Assembly (NCBI GenBank): GCA_019358895.1
Contig: JAHHIG010000006.1
Coordinates: forward strand, 1 to 64,000
Length of the DNA stretch: 64,000 nucleotides
Source of the DNA: Tildeniella nuda ZEHNDER 1965/U140
Lineage (GTDB): Bacteria; Cyanobacteriota; Cyanobacteriia; Leptolyngbyales; Leptolyngbyaceae
Direction of reading: 5' to 3'
Shown piece after piece: positions 1-13,710 of this stretch. Positions within the stretch are counted from its first letter, which is position 1; each line of letters starts with the position of its first letter. The notes beneath the pieces are model-generated. The model did not search any database. It saw only the letters and a program-made list of their open reading frames with translations, and was not told the DNA's origin. Made by a program: the position numbers and the translations under genes.

Positions 1-2
1 CA

Positions 3-119
3 AGCTCGACTTTTCCCAGTCTCTAGCGCAACAACCGATATGGTAAAAATACCAAAAGTCTTATTAGACTGCTGTTTCAGCCTATTGTGCTACGCTGCCT
101 AATTGGATAAAGTCGAGCT
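3..119. repeat. 11-bp inverted repeat bracketing about 95 bp
   Basis: AGCTCGACTTT at 3-13 is perfectly inverted as AAAGTCGAGCT at 109-119. The DNA between shows no gene. The pair could be the ends of a small non-coding element or a cruciform; only one copy is seen here. Confidence 0.45.
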
Positions 120-167
120 AAGAGGCTATTTGAAAAGGTATGGTCTGTAAGCTTAAGCACTCAGCGA

Positions 168-322: not shown

Positions 323-1234
323 TTGGATTGCCTTGATGAGGCTCAGATTGGCTTTGCCCGCAACTCAAATGAAGATACAGCCTTCCTGGAAGTCCTCTCT
401 CGGTTGGTGCGTCGTAGCAACAAAGAGCGAGAACGGCTTCGCACTCAAGTTAAAAGCATCATGCTAGAGATGTCAGCGGCGATCACGACCGAAGGAACGC
501 GGCTTGCCACAGCCGTTGGTGACGCAAACTTTGAGGATCTGCATAAACAGTCCGAAATCAATGTTCGTAAGCATTACGAGAAGGCTGGCGAAGCTCTAGA
601 GCAAACGATTGAGCAAGCCATTCAGTCGATTCAGCTTGAAGTTGAAGCTGAACTGCAAAGCAATCTGACTCAGGCTTTTGTGGCTCAACTCAACTTCAAC
701 GGTTCAGTCTCAGCGCAAAACCTCAAGGTCAATCTGAAACAACAGCAGGTACAAGGGCAAGTTGAGTGGCTGCAACAGATTGGTGGTCAAGTAGGCGCAA
801 AAATTACGCAAGCAGCAACCAGAGAATTTGCCACTACAACTGGTCAAGGCTTTCTCCATTCCATGGATGTTGCAGGCAGTGACCTTCATCAAGGTGTGCT
901 TGGACTCGGGAAGGCGATCGGCTTCAAATTCAAACCCTGTCAAGCAGTAGGCATTGCTAAGAATATCGGCAATGCTGCGATGGTTCTGGGACCTGCCCTA
1001 GTCGTTATATCCGTAGGGATGGATCTACACACGATGCATTAAGAACGAGAGTACGAGAAGCAAATGGCAGATGTTCGTCGTGATATTACCAGTCAGTTCA
1101 AGGCGATCGCCATCGACCTCGAACAGCAAATGGAGAACCAACTGTGGCAATTTGAAAATCAGGTCTATGGGCAGCTTGAGAAGAATATCGCCGAGGCACG
1201 GCAGCAAACTGAGTCAGATCTTCTTCAAATGTAG
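323..1234 (+). pseudogene. C-terminal remnant of a dynamin-like GTPase-family protein, with in-frame stop
   Basis: The reading frame runs 323-1042 (239 residues) to a TAA, then continues in the same frame from 1043 to a TAG at 1232-1234 with protein of the same character (charged coiled coil, MADVRRDITSQFKAIAIDLE). The two parts read as one helical protein of about 300 residues with a single nonsense codon; CAA to TAA is the simplest explanation. No nucleotide-binding motif is present and the frame is closed just upstream at 287-289, so the N-terminal domain is missing. The helical C-terminus with a short hydrophobic segment (AAMVLGPALVVISVGM) resembles bacterial dynamin-like GTPases, but that family call rests on general similarity and memory. 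Confidence 0.5.
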
Positions 1235-1322: not shown

Positions 1323-4040
1323 TTGGCTACAGAGCAAGATTTTTCACAAACTGCACAGTCACTAGAGTCACTAATGAGCCGTTTAATCTACTTAGAGGCT
1401 CAGCCGTATTTCCGTGCGAAGGAAGTGGCTGATCAAAATCAGCTTGCTGTAACTACTCCTACCAAAACTACAGCAAGGGCTTTGGGCAAACAGAAGCGAT
1501 CGCTGCAAGATTTTGCCATGCAGCAATTACCCAAGGGGACAACGATCGCGTCTCCCCTGGAGGCACAGAGAGCCTTGCGCGAAGCAATCCATCAAACGGT
1601 TCAGCCTCATGACGTTGAAGGGACAGCACGAGCGTGGATGCCAACGGTTCAAGCCTTGCTGCGATCGTCGCCCTCATTCAATATCGCGCTAGACAGTTGT
1701 ACAGAACGGGCAACGCAACTATTGCAAGTGACGCAGCGGTATGTGGATATCCTGCGACAGCAGAACCAGTTTGACACAGCAGAAGTCTTGTGGAGGGCTG
1801 TCGAGCAACAGCCGGAGCCTCACCCAGCCCTCATTTACGGTTACTTCCAACCGCGATTGGACGAGTTGACGTTGATTGATGCGATCGCCGCTGATGGTAG
1901 CATCGTTGTCTTGCCAATTGGGACTGGAGAGCTTTTTCGTGAAAGTCGCGTTGCAGTCGAATGGCTACAACAGAAAAGCTGGACGATTCATGCATTTGAA
2001 GCATCACTTCAGACAATTGGTGAAAAGCTAGGGCAACAATTTCTTGCACCCGTTGAGGCGATCGCAAAACCTTCAACTTATGCTTACAGCAACGTTGAGG
2101 CGGAAGTCCGAGGCACCCTAGCTCAAGTCAAGCAATTGTTGCATGAGGGGGTTTCTGCCCGCGATATTACCATCATTGCCAGAGATGAAATTTCCTACGG
2201 TCCTCAACTGCTGGAGATTGCCTGGGAGTGTGGTATTCCACTACGAGCGCTGTATGCCACACCCTTGAACACAACGCGCTTCGGAGCGTGGATCGACCTG
2301 TTGCTAGAGGCGATCGAACAGCAATTTCCTTTTGAGGCAACCGCAAAACTCCTCCGCCATCCGCTGTATACAAACCCAGATGCTGAATTTTGGAGCGCGG
2401 TGCGGTGTCTCCATCCGACTGGGTTTACGGCATGGCAAGAGGTTTGCCAAAGCGTTTTGAACTTTGACCTATCAGTGCTGAAGGTGGGGCATCGGGCACG
2501 TCGGGATTTCTGGGTTGAACGCCTTCAAACCATTCTCAAGACGTTTGATTTACGACGACGTTGCTCCCGTTGGGCACGAGAAAGTTTGGCGTTCAATGCA
2601 TTGAATCAAGCGTTGGTGAATCTAGCCAAACCAGAGGAAGAAATACTAACCTGGAGTGCCTTTGCCCAAGAGATGCGAGAGGTGCTGGCGATCGTAGGCG
2701 TGCCTGCCCAACCCGGTCGCGGTGGCGTAGAGCTGCATAGTCCAAGCTCTATCATCGGAGCACGCTATCCCTATTTGTTTGTCCTTGGCATGGCAGAGGA
2801 GACTTTACCTGCGCCAGTGCGTAACGATTGCGTCCTGGACTTTCACGAGCGCAAGGCACTTCGACACATTGGCATTCCACTTGAATTGGCTTCTGAGGCA
2901 GCTCGTCAAGAAGCACTGCTTTTCTATTACCTGCTGCAAACTATAACCGAAGCCGTTGTCTTTTCGTATGCAAGCTTAAACGGTCGTCAGGAGCAATTAC
3001 CCAGTCCATATCTCGCTCAATTGGGGCTGAAGGCGATCGCGCCGCCTGAAATGCCGATCGCCAGTTTGGAGGCATTGCAAAAGCTTTCCTTACGTAGGGC
3101 AACTCATCCTGAGGATGTTGTCCTGCAAAACGCGATTCACGCTTGGACTGTGGAATGTCGTCGCGAAAGTAGTGCAACACAGGATGAGTATGACGGTGTC
3201 ACTGGAATGCCCATTGATTATCGCGATCGTATCTTTAGCGTTTCTCAATTAACCAAGCTAGGACTTTGTCCCTTTCAATGGTTTGCCGATAAAGTGCTGA
3301 AACTGGGCGAACCCGAAGAAAGCGAGGATGATCTCAGCCCCAGTCGTCGAGGTAATTTGTATCACAAAGTGCTGGAACTGGTCTTTAAGGAACTACAGAC
3401 TAACCCACAACAATCGTTGCAAGATCCAGCACTGTTGGAAGCGCAATTTCAAAGCGTTGAGCAAGCCATGAAGCTCACAGACTTGCCCCTTTGGGCAGTA
3501 CGACGCATTGAGCATCTACAGACGTTGCAGCGAGTTCTTAACGAGCCTAACTTCTTTCCAGACGGAGCAGAAGCGATCGCGCTAGAAGCTAAATTTGAAG
3601 GGATCTGGCATGACCTGAAATTAACGGGACGGGTCGATCGTATCGATCGCACCCCCCAGGGATTGGTGCTCATTGATTACAAGACAGGCTCCTCACCCCC
3701 AAAAGGCGTTAGCGACGCGAATGGCAAAGCCTGTATTGACCTCCAACTCCCTCTTTATCAACAGGTTGCTGCCCCTGCTCTCTTTCCAGCGGCGACGGTG
3801 GCGACATCGTATTACTATTCACTCACTAAAACGAAAAAGCTATCTAAGGCGCTGCCTTCAGAGCAAGAGTTAGCAGACGTTGCCGATCGTTGTAAAGCTC
3901 ACCTGAATCACGGTCATTTTCCAGTGCAGCCCGATGTGGGAGGGGTTGCCTGTCAATACTGCGCCTTTGATCTGGTTTGCCGTCAGGGAAGCCGCTTGAG
4001 CCGCAAAGCACGCAAGGAGAATACCCATGATGCTGACTAA
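1323..4040 (+). CDS. AddB-like PD-(D/E)XK nuclease/helicase-fold subunit
   Basis: A 905-residue protein that resembles the AddB/RexB subunit of recombination helicase-nucleases, which resect double-strand breaks. The C-terminal nuclease is visible: GRVDRID followed by LIDYKTG near residues 770-785 supplies the catalytic Asp and Asp-x-Lys. Four Cys typical of an Fe-S-stapled nuclease are present, one at CPFQWF near 648 and three in CQYCAFDLVC near 876. No Walker A motif is seen at the N-terminus, so this subunit probably does not hydrolyse ATP. Start is TTG at 1323. The stop overlaps the start of the AddA-like gene by 14 bp, so the two are co-translated. Both appear intact despite decayed neighbours. 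Confidence 0.8.
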   Translation: MATEQDFSQTAQSLESLMSRLIYLEAQPYFRAKEVADQNQLAVTTPTKTTARALGKQKRSLQDFAMQQLPKGTTIASPLEAQRALREAIHQTVQPHDVEGTARAWMPTVQALLRSSPSFNIALDSCTERATQLLQVTQRYVDILRQQNQFDTAEVLWRAVEQQPEPHPALIYGYFQPRLDELTLIDAIAADGSIVVLPIGTGELFRESRVAVEWLQQKSWTIHAFEASLQTIGEKLGQQFLAPVEAIAKPSTYAYSNVEAEVRGTLAQVKQLLHEGVSARDITIIARDEISYGPQLLEIAWECGIPLRALYATPLNTTRFGAWIDLLLEAIEQQFPFEATAKLLRHPLYTNPDAEFWSAVRCLHPTGFTAWQEVCQSVLNFDLSVLKVGHRARRDFWVERLQTILKTFDLRRRCSRWARESLAFNALNQALVNLAKPEEEILTWSAFAQEMREVLAIVGVPAQPGRGGVELHSPSSIIGARYPYLFVLGMAEETLPAPVRNDCVLDFHERKALRHIGIPLELASEAARQEALLFYYLLQTITEAVVFSYASLNGRQEQLPSPYLAQLGLKAIAPPEMPIASLEALQKLSLRRATHPEDVVLQNAIHAWTVECRRESSATQDEYDGVTGMPIDYRDRIFSVSQLTKLGLCPFQWFADKVLKLGEPEESEDDLSPSRRGNLYHKVLELVFKELQTNPQQSLQDPALLEAQFQSVEQAMKLTDLPLWAVRRIEHLQTLQRVLNEPNFFPDGAEAIALEAKFEGIWHDLKLTGRVDRIDRTPQGLVLIDYKTGSSPPKGVSDANGKACIDLQLPLYQQVAAPALFPAATVATSYYYSLTKTKKLSKALPSEQELADVADRCKAHLNHGHFPVQPDVGGVACQYCAFDLVCRQGSRLSRKARKENTHDAD

Positions 4041-7000
4041 ACAGCAAGCCGCTGCCGCTTATGCAGTCCACAGTGTTGCAGTCACAGCAGGCGCGGGCAC
4101 TGGCAAAACTCATATGCTGGCAGAACGGTATTTGTACCATCTGGAGTCAGGTTACTCACCGCTGACAATTGTCGCTCTAACGTTTACTGAAAAAGCAGCA
4201 ACTGAGTTGCGATCGCGCATTCGTCAAACGATTGGCGATCGCTTAGCCAACCCTGATTTTGTTGCAGAGCTGGAAGCGGCTCAGATTAGTACCTTTCATG
4301 CGTTGGCAGCGCGTATTTGTCGAGAACATTCCGATGCCGCAGGGGTGCCACCCGACTTCGCCGTGCTAGACGATTTGGATGGCAAGGTTTGGCTGGCAGA
4401 AGCGTTTACAGAGGCGCTCGATCAGATTCCGCTGCACCTTTACAAGCAAGTGCCCTACTCCTCAATGCGATCGATTATGCTTGCGCTCTTGGGCGATCCA
4501 TTGACGGCAACAAAGGCACTTGCGAGAAGGCGGAAGGATTGGTTGCCGATACTTCAACAAGTGAAGCAAGAAGCGCTGGAAGCGTTCGTGCATCATAAGG
4601 ATTGGTTCAATACTAAGGATATCTTGCAGAGCTACGCTGCTCCTGGGGACAAGCTCAACGATGTGCGCGAGTCTACTTTAGACGCGATCGCGAGCATAGA
4701 GCAAGGACACGCTTTCGCCGAATCTTTGGAAGCGTTATGTGATTTGAAAGTGAATGTCGGAAGCCAAAAAGCATGGGGTAGCAAAGAAAAGTTAGATGCT
4801 GTCAAAGATGCCATCAAATGCATACGTGAATTGGCTCAGGAGCATCAAAAGCAAGGTCTAATGACCCTGGAACCAAATATCTGGGATGACCAAGCAGAAG
4901 CAATTTTACCCGTTCTGCGAGAGGCATTCGAACAGGTGCGATCGCAGCTCCAGCAGGCGAAGCAACGTCAGCGAGTATTGGATTTTAGTGATCTAGAAAT
5001 TCATGCACTGCAAGCCTTAAACCATCAAGCAGTACGGGACTACTACGCTCAACGCTGGCAAGTCTTCTTAATCGATGAATTTCAAGATACGAATCCCATT
5101 CAAGGGGAACTTCTAGAACTGTTAACGGCGAATCAGTTGCTTACCATTGTTGGGGATGCGAAGCAATCCATCTATGGCTTCCGTCGAGCTGATGTGAAGG
5201 TCTTTGAGTCCTGGCGCGATCACATTTACAGTGCAGGCAATCCGCCCAAAGAACTGAGCCTCAGTTTTCGGACTCATCACACCTTAATGCAGAGCATCAA
5301 TACCATTTTTGAGCCGATATTGAATGGATTGCATCAAAACCTGGACGCTCATCGACAGGAGGAACCCCATACCGCTCCCCATTTGCGTGTCTTGACGATT
5401 CAAGACACGCATGGTCTGCCAATCGATCAATGTCGGCAAATTGAGGCACAACAAATTGCTGACCTGATCAAACAACTGCTGGACGATCAGGTAATGGTGT
5501 ATGACAAGCTGACAGGAACCTTACGCCCGATCGAATATCGTGATATTGCCATTTTGTCGCGCACGTGGAGTCCTTTAGAGCTATACGGTCAGGCATTAGA
5601 GAGCCAGGGCATTCCGATTTTTCAAGCTGGAGGTGGCAGCCTTCTGGAGACCCGTGAAGCTAAAGATGCATGGGCGCTGCTGCGCTTCCTGGCGGACCCC
5701 ACTGATGATATTGCCTTCATGGCAGTGCTGCGGAGTCCCTTCTTTGCGGTGAGCGATCGTACGCTCTTTCAATTGGCTCAAACTCTACCCGACCAGGTCT
5801 CCTGGTGGAAGCACCTGAAACACCAGCCAAACGCTGGAAGCTATGCCGCGATTCAAGTACTCGAAAAACTGTTGATCGAACGGCATAGCGAAGCACCCAC
5901 GCGTCTCCTACAATTAGCCGATCGCGTCACTGGCTACACGGCAGTCATCGCCAATCTCCCAAATGCTCCCCGTCGGGAAGCTGATTGGCTCGGCTTTCTG
6001 GCGTTTGTCCGAGAGTTGGAACAGGGAAGCAATGATGTATTGAGCGTTGTGCAACGGCTGAAAATTTTAGTGACGAGTGAGGTGGAAGTGCCTCGCCCAG
6101 CCCTGGAAGCAGGCAATGCCGTGCAGCTCATGACCATTCACGCCTCTAAAGGATTGGAATGGTCAGTGGTTGCGGTTGCTGATTTAACACGACGATCGCC
6201 ATCAGATTCTTCGCAAGTTCGGTTTGATCCAGACCTTGGTTTAACCTTCCAGTTGGCAGATGAAGCGGGTGACAACCAAAAATCTGCCCTTTACACGCTG
6301 CTGGAATATCGCAAGCGCCAGGCGGAAAAGGAGGAGAACAAGCGGGTTCTCTATGTTGCTCTGACTCGTGCGCGCGATCACCTCATTCTCACTGCCGCAG
6401 GTAACAAAGGAGGCGGTTTAGACATACTCCACCCTGGACTACAAGGGGCTGTGTCCATTGAGGAAATTTCAATGGAACAAGATCGCCTTCACCCCGTAGA
6501 TATTGAAGACCCACCTTTACCCAGCATTCCTACGCGTATTCTCACTGGCACGGTCGGATCAGGGCTTTGGGAATTGCCTGTTACCGCGCTTACCGAGTAT
6601 GCTCAGTGCCCCCAACGGTTTCGCTATCGTTACGTTGACGGACATCTGGGCTACCGTGAAGCCAATGGGAATCACGGCACTGAGATTGGCACAGTCACTC
6701 ATTGGGCGTTACAGCATCAGATTCAAGAGCTTCAACCACTGTCGGCAAACTTTTCACACCTGTCGATCGATATCTTGCAAGAGGCACTGATACTGGCGCA
6801 GCAATTCCATCAGCGAGAGCTGTATGCACCGTATCGGCATCCAGAAGGATTGGCAGAACATGCCATAACGCTGAAGCTGGGTCAAATTACATTCAACGGG
6901 ATCATTGATTGGCTAACCCCGGAGTGTGTATTGGATTTTAAGACCGATCAGGAACCTAAGCCTCATCACCATCGCTTGCAGTTGTGGGCGTACGCCAAAG

Positions 7001-7209
7001 CCACTGAGCGTACGACTGCTCATATCGCGTATCTCCGCCACAGCCAAGTGCATACCTTTACTGCTCAAGACTTAACTGAACTGCAAGACGAAGCTGAGGC
7101 TGTAGCAAACGCGATCGCCAAAGGACAATATCCACCCCAACCGTCTCAAACAAGCTGTAGCAGTTGTGCTTATCTAGAAATCTGTGACCACGGTATGCGA
7201 TCGGGATGA
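4027..7209 (+). CDS. AddA-like UvrD/Rep superfamily helicase with C-terminal nuclease
   Basis: A 1060-residue superfamily 1A helicase. Visible motifs are Walker A GAGTGKT (22-28), Walker B FLIDEFQDTN (about 347-356), GDAKQSIYGFRRAD (motif III/IV), IHASKGLEW (near 701, motif V) and VLYVALTRARDH (near 773, motif VI). The C-terminus has a PD-(D/E)XK nuclease with GTVTHW and CVLDFKTD (near 969). A Cys at AQCPQRF (near 859) and three in CSSCAYLEIC (near 1043) suggest an Fe-S cluster in this subunit too. Together with the overlapping upstream gene it should form an AddAB-type enzyme. Known role of the family is resection at double-strand breaks and degradation of foreign linear DNA. Confidence 0.85.
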   Translation: MMLTKQQAAAAYAVHSVAVTAGAGTGKTHMLAERYLYHLESGYSPLTIVALTFTEKAATELRSRIRQTIGDRLANPDFVAELEAAQISTFHALAARICREHSDAAGVPPDFAVLDDLDGKVWLAEAFTEALDQIPLHLYKQVPYSSMRSIMLALLGDPLTATKALARRRKDWLPILQQVKQEALEAFVHHKDWFNTKDILQSYAAPGDKLNDVRESTLDAIASIEQGHAFAESLEALCDLKVNVGSQKAWGSKEKLDAVKDAIKCIRELAQEHQKQGLMTLEPNIWDDQAEAILPVLREAFEQVRSQLQQAKQRQRVLDFSDLEIHALQALNHQAVRDYYAQRWQVFLIDEFQDTNPIQGELLELLTANQLLTIVGDAKQSIYGFRRADVKVFESWRDHIYSAGNPPKELSLSFRTHHTLMQSINTIFEPILNGLHQNLDAHRQEEPHTAPHLRVLTIQDTHGLPIDQCRQIEAQQIADLIKQLLDDQVMVYDKLTGTLRPIEYRDIAILSRTWSPLELYGQALESQGIPIFQAGGGSLLETREAKDAWALLRFLADPTDDIAFMAVLRSPFFAVSDRTLFQLAQTLPDQVSWWKHLKHQPNAGSYAAIQVLEKLLIERHSEAPTRLLQLADRVTGYTAVIANLPNAPRREADWLGFLAFVRELEQGSNDVLSVVQRLKILVTSEVEVPRPALEAGNAVQLMTIHASKGLEWSVVAVADLTRRSPSDSSQVRFDPDLGLTFQLADEAGDNQKSALYTLLEYRKRQAEKEENKRVLYVALTRARDHLILTAAGNKGGGLDILHPGLQGAVSIEEISMEQDRLHPVDIEDPPLPSIPTRILTGTVGSGLWELPVTALTEYAQCPQRFRYRYVDGHLGYREANGNHGTEIGTVTHWALQHQIQELQPLSANFSHLSIDILQEALILAQQFHQRELYAPYRHPEGLAEHAITLKLGQITFNGIIDWLTPECVLDFKTDQEPKPHHHRLQLWAYAKATERTTAHIAYLRHSQVHTFTAQDLTELQDEAEAVANAIAKGQYPPQPSQTSCSSCAYLEICDHGMRSG

Positions 7210-7311
7210 AATTTGTTGGCAAGCATATCGTCATCAATCAACTTTGACATGGCGATGAAAATTGAATTTAAGGGCACTTTCAAGCAAGATTGATTATATC
7301 TCCCCGTCAAA

Positions 7312-8100
7312 ATGGCATCATCCTTTACTTGGCTAGATTACTCTGAGCAAGACAAGCGTAAAATGCCTGATGTCATCAGCTTGTTTAGTGAAAAGACCAC
7401 TCGCGACGAACTAGGCATTGGTTCTGTACGCGATGCCTTCGCCGAGCTGTTTTTTCCAGGCACCAGCACTATCCAGACCCGTGCACGCTACTTTCTCTTC
7501 ATCCCCTGGATCTATCTTGATCTGGTGAGCCGCAAAACACCCTCCAACCAGATTGCAGCCAAACTGCGACAGCGAGAAGTTGAACTCATTAACGCTCTAG
7601 CCGATTCGGGTGAAACGAAGGGAGTCATTGGCATCCAGGCACGAGCAGGCTTAAAGCGGCTTCCCAGCAATGTCTACTGGTCTGGGTTAAGAACCTGGCA
7701 TATCCGCCTGTTTCAGGGCTCCCAGGAAGATTACCACAGTAATCCATACCATTTCGCCAGCCGTTCTCAGCGCAACGATGATGGCGAACCCATTGATGGC
7801 AAGATCACTTACAACTGGCATCAAGGATTGCCGCCAGCTCCACCCAACTTCCCTCACAATGTCACCTTTCGTCTCACTTCTGCTGAGGCAGAGTATTTGG
7901 CAGAACGCATTTTGACCAAGTGCTCCAATAGCCTGCTAGCGTTTCTGGTCGATCGCCGCCAAACTAACATCCCTGCCGCTTTTGCGTGGGAACATCCTCT
8001 GTTTGATCAATTTCCTCCTCACATCCAAGAGCAGTTGCAGCACGCCCGTAACTTTTCTGAAGTCGTCCAGGGAGCGGCTTTACTCTACAACCTGATGTTG
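7312..8100 (+). pseudogene. DUF6361 family gene, 3' end deleted
   Basis: The N-terminus (SFTWLDYSEQDKRKMPDVI, then RDAFAELFFPGTSTIQTRAR and a hydrophobic YFLFIPWIYLDLV) is recognisable as DUF6361, a family of unknown function. The family-like sequence continues to about GAALLYNLML (8098). Beyond that the same frame stays open to 8352 but reads through the phospholipase-D-like gene in the wrong frame, so roughly 85 C-terminal residues are out-of-frame translation. A deletion therefore joined the inside of this gene to the inside of the next. The ATG at 7312 follows a 102-bp spacer after the AddA-like gene. Confidence 0.7.
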
Positions 8101-9195
8101 GCATCACCGTCTTTTGTCAAACGGGCAAAATTGCCATTCCTAAAAATCACAGCTTGCTCTACAGCTACTTGGAAGGTTCTGTGGTTGAAGTCAATGCTCC
8201 CCGTTCAGGCGGTATTTTCCATCCTAAAGTCTGGGTACTGCGCTTCACAGCCCCTAATCAACCGATTCTGTATCGCTGCCTCTGCCTCAGCCGCAACCTC
8301 ACCTTCGATCGCTCCTGGGATACCATGCTGGTGTTGGATGGTCAGCTTATAAAGAACAGCAAGGAAGTCGCAGCGAACCGTCCCCTCAGTGATTTCGTTG
8401 CTTCCCTGCCTCGATTAGCTCGTAATCCATCGCTTGTGGAACGGGTACAAACGCAGGTCGATCTCATTGCGACAGAATTGCAGCGCGTACAGTTTGAACT
8501 GCCTGCTGGCTTTGAGCAACTGCTCTTCCACCCGTTAGGACTACAGGGAAATTCCAAGTCACCTATTGCTGGGCAAATCGATCGCCTACTAGTTGTCTCT
8601 CCTTTCGTCAGCGAGAAGCGCTTACATCAACTGAGTCAACAAGGGAAGCGTAATATTCTGATCGCTCGCCCTGAAGCACTCGAACAAATCCCCTTAACGA
8701 CGTTAGGCACTTTTGCCCAGTGTTATCAAATTAGCCCTGCTGCCAATCCTGAGGATGCTGATGCAACGCCTAGCACTTCTACTCAGGCTCCTTTAGTGGG
8801 TCTTCATGCCAAACTCTACGTTGCAGAAGCAGGACCAACCGTCCGCATCTGGACTGGTTCCGCCAACGCAACGGATGCAGCTTTCGAGCGCAACGTGGAA
8901 TTTCTGGTGGAACTGGTTGGAAGTAAGCAGCAGTTCGGCATTGATACTCTCCTAGCGCTGCATGATCACGAAGTCTCGTTCAGAAGCTTGCTAGAACCGT
9001 TTATCCCACCGTCTGAACCGATCCTGATTGACGACTCGCTGCAAGACCTGGCTCAAGCCGCAGAGGTTAAGCTGCTGAAATTTTCTCTGACCGCTCATGT
9101 TTTGCTAATCGAAGCCTCTGACCTGTATTGCCTACAACTGCAATTTGAAGGGAACGGTTCACTAGATTTCGCGCCCGATCTTGCGGTGCGTTTCA
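8085..9195 (+). pseudogene. Phospholipase D-like protein, both ends deleted
   Basis: About 370 residues in frame 3 of the window resemble a PLD-family protein: FHPKVWVLRF and HAKLYV carry the H-x-K pairs, each followed by an N-containing segment (LSRNLTFDRSWD and TGSANATDAAFERN). Sequence upstream of the first Met (8154) is still protein-like (PDVGITVFCQTGKIAIPKN), running back to the junction with the DUF6361 remnant, so the true N-terminus is lost. Downstream, near 9180-9200, the frame passes into a helicase read out of frame and stops at 9215. PLD-like proteins of this kind often act as nucleases in defence loci; that role here is inference. Confidence 0.7.
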
Positions 9196-9678
9196 GTTGG
9201 ACAAGAAGGGCTTGACTTTCACCCCTACTGCCATGCGATCGTTCACTGGAACTTACCCTCCAACCCTGTTGATCTCGAACAGCGTGAGGGGCGAATCCAT
9301 CGGTATAAAGGACACGCCGTCCGCAAAAATTTGGCGCTCAAATATGGTCTGGGTGAAATTGCTAGTGCTGATGGTGATCCCTGGGAAAGTCTGTTTGCCG
9401 CAGGTAAGCGCGATCGCCCACAAGAGTCTTCAGACCTCATACCGTTCTGGCTTTACCCCTTGGTAGACGGTGCCCAAATTGAGCGCTACGTTCCCAACTT
9501 ACCCCTGAGTCGTGATTCTGAGCGCTTGGTGGTTCTACGCCGATCGCTGGCAGTTTACCGGATGGTCTTCGGGCAAAGCCGTCAGGAAGATCTGCTTGCT
9601 TATCTGCTCGATCGTCTGCCTGTAGCCGAAGCAGAACAAGTTATGCGCAACCTCCAAATCAACTTAGAGCCACTTTAG
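9181..9678 (+). pseudogene. C-terminal remnant of SNF2-type helicase
   Basis: The 165-residue frame holds only the last helicase motifs: SVGQEGLDFHPYCHAIVHW (motif V region) and DLEQREGRIHRYKGH (motif VI with the arginine finger region), then about 110 C-terminal residues. The first four codons (9181-9192) belong to the junction with the PLD-like gene. Walker A and B and the first RecA domain are absent, so it cannot act as an ATPase. It is the third member of the eroded DUF6361-PLD-helicase run. Confidence 0.75.
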
Positions 9679-9754
9679 GCTAGAAAGTAATCTACTTGAC
9701 ATTAAACAATTAAATTAGCTACATGAGCCAGTGAAACTATTAGTCCTAGAAAAC

Positions 9755-9958
9755 CGACACTTAATTTGCGAAGCAAGTTGTTTCAGAGAAACGACAGTTA
9801 ATTAGCGAAGCTGACTTTGCGACGCATAATATGCGAATCTGCTTGAATGTCGCTTTTTTGTACAAATAGCCTGAACAACCTGGTAAACAGTTGTTTAAGT
9901 CCGTTTGTACCCAGCTAAAACGATTTATGAAATGCGACGTTTAATGTGCGAACGTACA
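9755..9958. mobile_element. Right end of a Tn7-like transposon, type V-K CAST-like
   Basis: Four 20-bp direct repeats fit CGACrnnTAATnwGCGAAnn: 9755-9774, 9792-9811, 9820-9839 and 9935-9954. The last runs directly into CGTACA ending at 9958. In the ShCAST right end, as I remember it, repeats of the form CGACannnAATTnGTCAC are laid out the same way, and the final one likewise reaches ACA 24 nt after its first base. These would be TnsB binding sites. Orientation puts the element to the left, with flanking DNA starting at 9959. No transposase or cas gene lies in the window, so the CAST class is inferred from the end alone. A second TGTACA at 9859-9864 is a less likely terminus because no repeat abuts it. 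Confidence 0.65.
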
Positions 9959-10733
9959 AGTGCTTTTGTCCATTAAAGAGCTATTTGTCAGTTTTAATTA
10001 GCTACTGCCAGGAAATTTTCTTCTCCACCGCATTTTCAGGGTTTCAACCAATACCCTCCAATTCTGGTCGGGTTCAATCCTACAAAACTAAGTTTAATTA
10101 GATCTCGCAGAAAAACATTAATGAGCATAGCCCTAATGCTGTAAAGCCACGCTCCTATGGCATAAGTTATGCGAACTTGCGATCAACGTTGGTGCGATCG
10201 CAGCGCTCCTTTCTATCCACTTTTATTTTTCAAATACTTAATGACACCCCAACTCTCTTAGCCAAATTTAATAATTTTGCTTCTCTTTATCATTAACGGC
10301 TAGAAGGGCGGCAGCACTCCCCGCACGCTCAAGCCCTTCTCTAGATTGGACTTCTCAGATGGTTGCAAAAGTCTTAAAGTGATTCAAAATCAACGTCTTA
10401 ATTTCAGGTAGGGAACCCACCTTATTTGACTTGAAGCCTCTGTAAGCTTTTGTTGTGAAGAGTTTTAAGATTACGGTAAACTCACCCATTTCCTCCACTC
10501 AAAGGTTCCTTCAAACATGATGAGAAGGGGAATACGCTGCAACCGGAAAATGGTCGATGGTCGTTAGAGTGACCAATGAGGGGTATTGCGGTTTCTAATT
10601 CAGTGAAGTACAGTCGCAAAGAGGCAGAGGGCAGAAGTGAAAGAGAACGGCGGCTTTCCTCCTGCCTTCTGCCTTGAAACCTCAGCCCTTGTACTGCACT
10701 CTCATGAGAACCGCTATACCTAGCTCTAAGGCA
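9959..10733. other. Gene-free spacer right of the transposon end
   Basis: No coding sequence is supported. It holds scattered HIP1 sites, an inverted repeat AGAAGGGC (10302-10309)/GCCCTTCT (10333-10340) with a 23-nt loop, and at 10619-10672 a copy of the GGCAGAGGGCAGAAG-type intergenic repeat. The 5 bp just after the element end (AGTGC, 9959-9963) would be one target-site duplicate, but the partner lies outside the window. Confidence 0.5.

Positions 10734-13710
<2,977 letters not shown>

Follow-up and report, generated by a model that had tools for sequence, protein, structure and literature searches.

Positions 9755-9958 of the DNA analysed here (64,000 nucleotides from Tildeniella nuda, hereafter the window) very probably represent the right end (RE) of a decayed type V-K CAST, element B, which was inserted between a tRNA-Ala gene and the left end (LE) of an older CAST, element A. 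The window lies on contig C28 of an assembly (G000) of 6.08 Mb in 38 contigs that is 96% complete and broken at repeats. According to the accessible part of PMC9938897, the tnsB side of such an element is its RE and the tRNA/CRISPR side its LE, and by this convention the label "right end" chosen in the initial annotation is correct. The features of the window are collected in Table 1.

Table 1. Features in the window discussed in the text
Feature	Position	Strand	Basis or remark
Multicopy repeat where contig C28 stops	1..137	.	at least 9 further contigs carry 98-100% identical copies close to their ends; hides what lies further left
AddB-like PD-(D/E)XK protein, open frame	1323..4040	+	85% over 784 aa to a shorter G005 frame
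AddA/RecB-like UvrD helicase-nuclease, open frame	4027..7209	+	88% identical to G005 copy
ZacA (DUF6361) fragment, residues 1-264 of 406	7312..8103	+	~0.63 kb deleted between ZacA and ZacB
ZacB (PLD-like) fragment, residues 80-442 of 621	8103..9191	+	
ZacC fragment, C-terminal 173 of 1092 aa	9172..9687	+	tblastn and blastn against intact G005 copy; ~3.3 kb deleted upstream
Probable RE of element B (tnsB-side end of V-K CAST)	9755..9958	+	exact pattern; C9-end homology; G005 homology endpoint
TnsB-type sites of element B RE	9755-9772, 9792-9809, 9820-9837, 9935-9952	+	exact pattern
Terminus CGTACA of element B RE	9953-9958	+	
AGTGC target-site duplication (5 bp)	9959..9963	+	GCACT repeated beside C7 LE; equality asserted by script
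Element A LE remnant (older divergent V-K CAST)	9967..10245	-	84% over 280 nt to LE of G002 tRNA-Ala CAST
TGTC..TTAA..AGCTA-type sites (by eye, examples)	9967-9983, 9986-10004	-	
Element A anchor guide: truncated repeat GTGGATAGAAAG + spacer GAGCGCTGCGATCGCACC	10191..10220	-	spacer equals 18 nt of tRNA-Ala(CGC)
Element A tracrRNA/CRISPR remnants	10283..10528	-	against G002: 78% over 203 nt, 92% over 51 nt; cas12k lost here
Homoserine acetyltransferase-like gene (metX, named by eye)	10734..11837	-	RE neighbour in G000 and G005

The end array and its counterparts

The site pattern CGACNNNTAATNNGCGAA, with a conserved core of 18 bp, matches the window exactly four times, always on the + strand, against an expected count of 0.00 (largest 0) in 100 dinucleotide shuffles. 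Start-to-start intervals between the sites are 37, 28, and 115 nt, and the start of the last site lies 24 nt from the terminal A, where the sequence reads GCGAACGTACA followed by AGTGC. When two mismatches are allowed, six matches appear in the window, and the two additional ones are noise, as 1.31 are expected by chance. The four direct repeats originally described are present as exact, unevenly spaced sites, although their core is 18 bp rather than 20 bp long, and the site positions confirm that the last of them runs into CGTACA at the distance from the terminus that had been proposed.

In the whole assembly, exact CGACNNNTAATNNGCGAA occurs six times; the two copies outside the window, in opposite orientation (C9:312036, - strand; C9:346466, + strand), mark the two ends of a complete 34.5-kb V-K CAST on contig C9 (C9:312030-346489). 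The gene order of this element is tnsB (L012:1304-3178), tnsC, tniQ, cargo, cas12k (L013:13727-15694), and three CRISPR repeats; its TnsB, TnsC, TniQ, and Cas12k are all named type V-K by PADLOC models, Cas12k reaches 847 bits on NCBIfam V_Cas12k, and its cas12k side terminates next to tRNA-Thr(GGT). The tnsB-side end of the C9 CAST and window 9746-9958 share 75% identity over 213 bp as well as the terminus CGAACGTACA, and only the last 36 bp of this window segment resemble the other, cas12k-side end. The window end, an array of TnsB-type sites with a TGTAC-type terminus, is therefore the RE in the CAST convention, and the original assignment to a V-K-type CAST is borne out by this homology. 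Apart from the C9 ends, no further copy of the window RE was found in G000. While element B and the C9 CAST have the terminal 10 bp and the site class in common, the latter differs in its complete gene set, its homing to tRNA-Thr(GGT), and, as judged by eye, its cargo.

Element B departs from ShCAST, AnCAST, and other V-K CASTs in that cas12k is missing, its ends lie on separate contigs, and its inner half-site reads GCGAA in place of the GTCAC of ShCAST. The initial annotation had taken this half-site as the mark of a lineage with a different TnsB specificity, which is not supported as something new, since the TTCGC/GCGAA terminus is found upstream of most related tnsB genes: among 23 tnsB relatives in named cyanobacterial genomes, 15 have TGTACNTTCGC in the 1000 bp preceding the gene, three of the 23 being G001, G002, and G006 by our own matching. 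Of the remaining eight, L145 has a near variant and seven are without TGTACNTTCGC, including one with only 683 bp upstream and one represented only by a tnsB fragment. On this count, GCGAA ends are the common type of this clade. In the open literature searched, the only match for Cas12k together with TTCGCA concerns fish transposons, and no paper on Stenomitos and CAST was found.

Several other arrangements were observed alongside. The region about 420 to 30 bp before tnsB in G006:C42 (L129, minus strand) comprises, in this order, a full RE array, about 140 bp of different DNA, and one more site with a C9-like tnsB leader, and looks like a fusion of two REs. A similar tyrosine-recombinase-like ORF stands beside an XRE-like ORF inside the elements of both C9 (L013:2364-3790) and G005 (L104:14475-15904), as judged by eye; V-K CASTs are said, in the accessible part of the review PMC11406308, to have no site-specific recombinase. 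Additionally, a Tn7-like element at G000:C24:363712-374137 (L014:1713-12138) carries cas6, cas8, cas7, and cas5 of type I-B, together with tnsB, an ORF in the tnsC position, a TniQ_IB-type gene, and an unnamed 284-aa ORF at the possible place of tnsA, and is probably a I-B CAST in the same genome.

The partner end and the insertion site

Four exact copies of the end sequence TGTACGTTCGCA are present in the genome, namely at the window end, at both C9 ends, and at C7:32209-32220. The C7 copy reads AATGTGCGAACGTACA followed by GCACTTTCAACCT and then tRNA-Ala(CGC), which places the LE of element B at C7:32220, adjoining the tRNA gene and on a contig other than that of the RE. In L015 and L052, which cover this end, CGTACA is followed by GCACT, the reverse complement of the AGTGC beside the window terminus. 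The 5-bp duplication of AGTGC that had been anticipated is thus present, and so is the matching inverse end, though on contig C7 instead of leftward of the window. The C9 ends were considered as partners of the window RE and rejected, as their flanks differ and C7 alone matches; likewise, no tRNA gene adjoins window 9958, since ARAGORN finds none in the window and the tRNA sits on C7. The other end pairs lack matching duplications (AAATG/CCTTG in C9, AGGCT/ACAAC in G005, and CCCGT/ACAAC in G006). The C9 flanks at 312030 and 346489 (L012:1021-1030 and L013:16991-17000) contain an imperfect common 10-mer, CCTTAAAATG and CCTTGAAATG.

Inside the C7 LE lies a tracrRNA/CRISPR remnant that is 73% identical to C9 and 89-91% identical to G005, and the stub as a whole is 86-91% identical to the LE/tracrRNA/guide region near the Cas12k genes of G005 (full-length) and G006 (N-terminally short). 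It holds GAGGGCTGAAAG and then AAGCGCTGCGATCTCACC, corresponding to a truncated repeat and an anchor spacer, of which 15 of 17 nt match tRNA-Ala; the guides of the sister insertions match tRNA-Ala at 17/17 (G005) and 16/17 (G006) and tRNA-Thr at 17/17 (C9). The distance from the C7 LE to a GGTA PAM is 66 bp, compared with 65 bp in the three sister insertions (C9, G005, and G006). In PMC9938897, a survey of 118 V-K systems, the accessible part of which reports GTN PAMs, the published PAM-to-LE distances range from 46 to 82 nt, apart from a single value of 147. As far as the accessible parts of the sources go, V-K CASTs (ShCAST, AnCAST, and those of the PMC9938897 survey) resemble element B in the arrays of unevenly spaced TnsB sites at RE and LE, the 5-bp duplication, the LE beside a tRNA gene, the truncated repeat of about 12 nt with a 17-nt anchor spacer, and the GTN PAM; in ShCAST, four TnsB sites per end are described (PMC9371665). 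The C7 LE (C7:32107-32220; L052:12108-12221) is without the extra terminal site present in G005, G006, and C9, apparently as a result of deletion between two GCGAA repeats.

CAST-like DNA at the C7 LE extends over only about 450 bp. Beyond this stub come repeat-family DNA that is also present on C31 and then stretches with G004 orthologues, among which C7:26.1-27.0 and 28.3-29.8 kb have their counterparts on a single G004 contig and resemble ordinary chromosomal DNA. C7 was accordingly rejected as the intact other half of element B. As RE and LE lie on different contigs and the DNA inside the LE resembles host chromosome, a rearrangement that separated the two ends must be assumed.

The tRNA-Ala locus is present in all seven genomes of the genus, three of which (G000, G005, and G006) have a GCGAA-type LE there, one another V-K LE, and three neither. 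In G002, a stretch matching the right flank of the window stands directly beside tRNA-Ala. When the flanks of element B were joined by script, they aligned to G002 in one piece through the insertion point with a score of 627, while the window flank alone scored 371 and the maximum of 200 shuffles was 40; one 5-nt gap per sequence near the junction indicates that the exact target bases are not conserved. G002 thus joins both flanks, as an uninterrupted relative should, yet it cannot serve as a plain empty site, given that it carries the LE of its own, divergent V-K CAST at this position. In the stretches fetched from G001, G003, and G004, neither the window flank (scores 36-40) nor the CGAACGTACA end was found. 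Furthermore, the LE flanks of G000 and G005 differ (GCACT versus ACAAC), and the RE flank of G005, taken by eye to be an IS fragment, is without element A, so that G000 and G005 may, but need not, share a single insertion event.

A probably older element at the same tRNA gene

Immediately beyond the target duplication, window 9967-10245, 10283-10481, and 10478-10528 match, on the minus strand, the LE, tracrRNA, and array DNA of the G002 CAST at 84, 78, and 92%, respectively. The guide spacer of this element A remnant, at 10191-10208, reproduces 18 nt of the tRNA without a mismatch. Exact copies of this string were found in 27 of 204 extracted loci and were assigned by us to tRNA-Ala loci or to these guides. 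Since 8 of the 18 guide bases belong to the common cyanobacterial palindrome GCGATCGC, which lies within the guide core and has 77 copies in the window, it is the position and the accompanying repeat that carry weight.

The G002 element at tRNA-Ala encodes a 722-aa Cas12k (NCBIfam, 640 bits) that is 35-36% identical to the other Cas12k proteins compared, and its gene precedes the tracrRNA/CRISPR region matched by window 10283-10528. Beside the tRNA, the site further comprises a three-repeat CRISPR array, the spacer GAGCGCTGCGATCGCACC with its truncated repeat, and an end of the TGTACTGTCC..TTAA type, and 64 bp separate the LE terminus from the PAM; a similar terminus, TGTACATGTCCATTAAA, occurs upstream of another G002 tnsB (L199; 1 of 11 loci scanned). 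The G002 CAST therefore has an LE region of the same kind of DNA as window 9967-10528 and a guide to the same tRNA, whereas it differs from element B in its distant Cas12k, its end-site class (TGTCC..TTAA, by eye), and the absence of an element B interruption.

A second, divergent V-K CAST LE with its guide thus adjoins the RE at the same tRNA, and the two V-K CASTs are stacked at one tRNA site, element A presumably having been inserted before element B. According to the accessible part of PMC8649781, a Tn7-like element can transpose into another such element or to a position beside it. Stacked or tandem V-K CASTs were not found in an open-literature search, which left out the key preprint of Hsieh and Peters (2021), and the word "tandem" is absent from the review PMC11406308.

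Cargo, missing genes, and competing readings

In surveyed V-K CASTs, tnsBC-tniQ lie beside the RE, according to the accessible part of PMC9938897. Just inside the window RE, tnsB-tnsC-tniQ are absent and a ZacC fragment occupies this place, and tnsB is found directly inside the RE in neither G000 nor G005. No cas12k was found near the LE of element B, the only copy in G000 being that of C9, which also has the only V-K tnsB found in the assembly. The initial annotation had expected the rest of the machinery to the left, which the assembled DNA does not support; C28 stops in a multicopy repeat at window position 1. The corresponding LE stands beside a cas12k in both G005 (655 aa) and G006 (571 aa, with about the first 85 residues missing). 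Besides C9, the closest tnsB genes in the seven-genome genus are at G006:C42 (77%) and G001:C80 (51%); no close tnsB was found in G005 (recorded completeness 100%), where the best matches reach 34-38% identity. With neither tnsBC-tniQ by the RE nor cas12k near the LE, element B is a decayed remnant, dead or non-autonomous, rather than a functional member, and is most reasonably regarded as inactive.

The DNA left of 9958 nevertheless proved to be transposon cargo, as had been supposed, in the form of a ZacABC and AddAB-like block shared with G005. There, the same RE stands beside metX and is followed inward by intact ZacC (1092 aa), ZacB (621), and ZacA (406), an AddA-like protein (1065), and an AddB-like protein (792 aa, compared with 905 aa in the window). 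Homology between the window and G005 spans 1690-9960, ending within 2 bp of the RE terminus, and is interrupted in the window by the two deletions of about 0.63 kb (ZacA/ZacB) and 3.3 kb (ZacB/ZacC). PADLOC-DB lists ZacABC as candidate defence genes, and the G005 ZacA, ZacB, and ZacC score 469, 549, and 1181 bits on models PDLC03828-03830, whereas the window copies are gutted by the deletions. ZacC has matches at E<=0.001 in 29 of 42 family genomes, the next best after G005 and G000 reaching 36 bits over a helicase motif, and among these genomes real ZacC is confined to G005 (2498 bits) and G000 (348 bits). Tn7-like transposons with defence cargo have been reported (accessible part of PMC8649781), and nothing relevant to the Zac genes was found among the literature matches listed. 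A dynamin-like helical-domain ORF at window 323-1042 is perhaps further decayed cargo. Where the shared cargo homology stops in G005 (L081:16515-16557), 43 bp of the window-start repeat (window 81-123; 84%) are found exactly at that point, which would fit breakage of the cargo by this repeat at neighbouring positions in the two genomes.

By analogy with known V-K CASTs, Cas12k-guided TnsB transposition would have produced the insertion. Element A would have homed earlier to tRNA-Ala by its own guide, leaving window 9967-10528 as its remnant. Cas12k of element B, with its truncated-repeat anchor guide, would then have recognised tRNA-Ala(CGC) next to the GGTA PAM, and TnsB would have joined the ends 66 bp downstream with duplication of GCACT, so that element B, carrying the ZacABC and AddAB-like cargo, fell between the tRNA gene and the LE of element A. 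Subsequent decay would have removed tnsBC-tniQ and cas12k from the assembled DNA, introduced the two large deletions into the Zac genes, and left the ends on different contigs.

A different account of the missing transposase genes is that element B, with RE, LE, guide, and defence cargo, was non-autonomous and was moved in trans, with a resident V-K CAST such as C9 supplying TnsBC-TniQ (and Cas12k). The direct succession of RE and ZacC without tnsB in two species, the lack of a close tnsB in G005, and the terminus and site shared with the C9 ends in G000 all fit this account; however, it is rendered improbable by the disrupted Zac genes of the window, by the detached LE stub, by the failure to find a second RE copy in G000 apart from the C9 ends, and by the possibility that the layout was inherited from one insertion that decayed next to metX. 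The more general proposal of a transposase-less V-K CAST in at least two species, whose RE abuts the ZacABC-AddAB block, whose LE has its own tRNA guide, and which could move only if a resident V-K CAST with this end type acted in trans, is likewise unlikely. It is very unlikely that the array bounds a Tn7-like or Tn5053-like element without CRISPR that has the end motif by coincidence: the window is without a recognised tns gene or cas12k, and TnsB-type end arrays are general to Tn7-like elements (accessible part of PMC8649781), but the partner LE stub is closely similar (86-91%) to regions beside the Cas12k genes of G005 and G006 and has a tRNA-matching guide at V-K distance. Chance clustering of repeats in an intergenic region, favoured by the small copy number and nothing else, is refuted, as not one of 100 shuffles gave a single exact match and homologous ends stand at both termini of the complete C9 CAST and in G005.

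Element B is, in our preferred reading, a decayed V-K CAST of a known kind, and it is the stacked arrangement that is uncommon. The case illustrates how a single end in raw sequence can suffice to call a CAST, which its partner end, target duplication, and related sites then verify, and it connects the candidate defence genes ZacABC with CAST cargo. The stacked CASTs, with Cas12k proteins 35-36% identical and guides to the same 17-18 nt of tRNA-Ala, provide a natural test case for end-dependent target immunity in V-K systems. If a transposase-less element did settle beside an older CAST of another end type, V-K target immunity would be specific to the end lineage.
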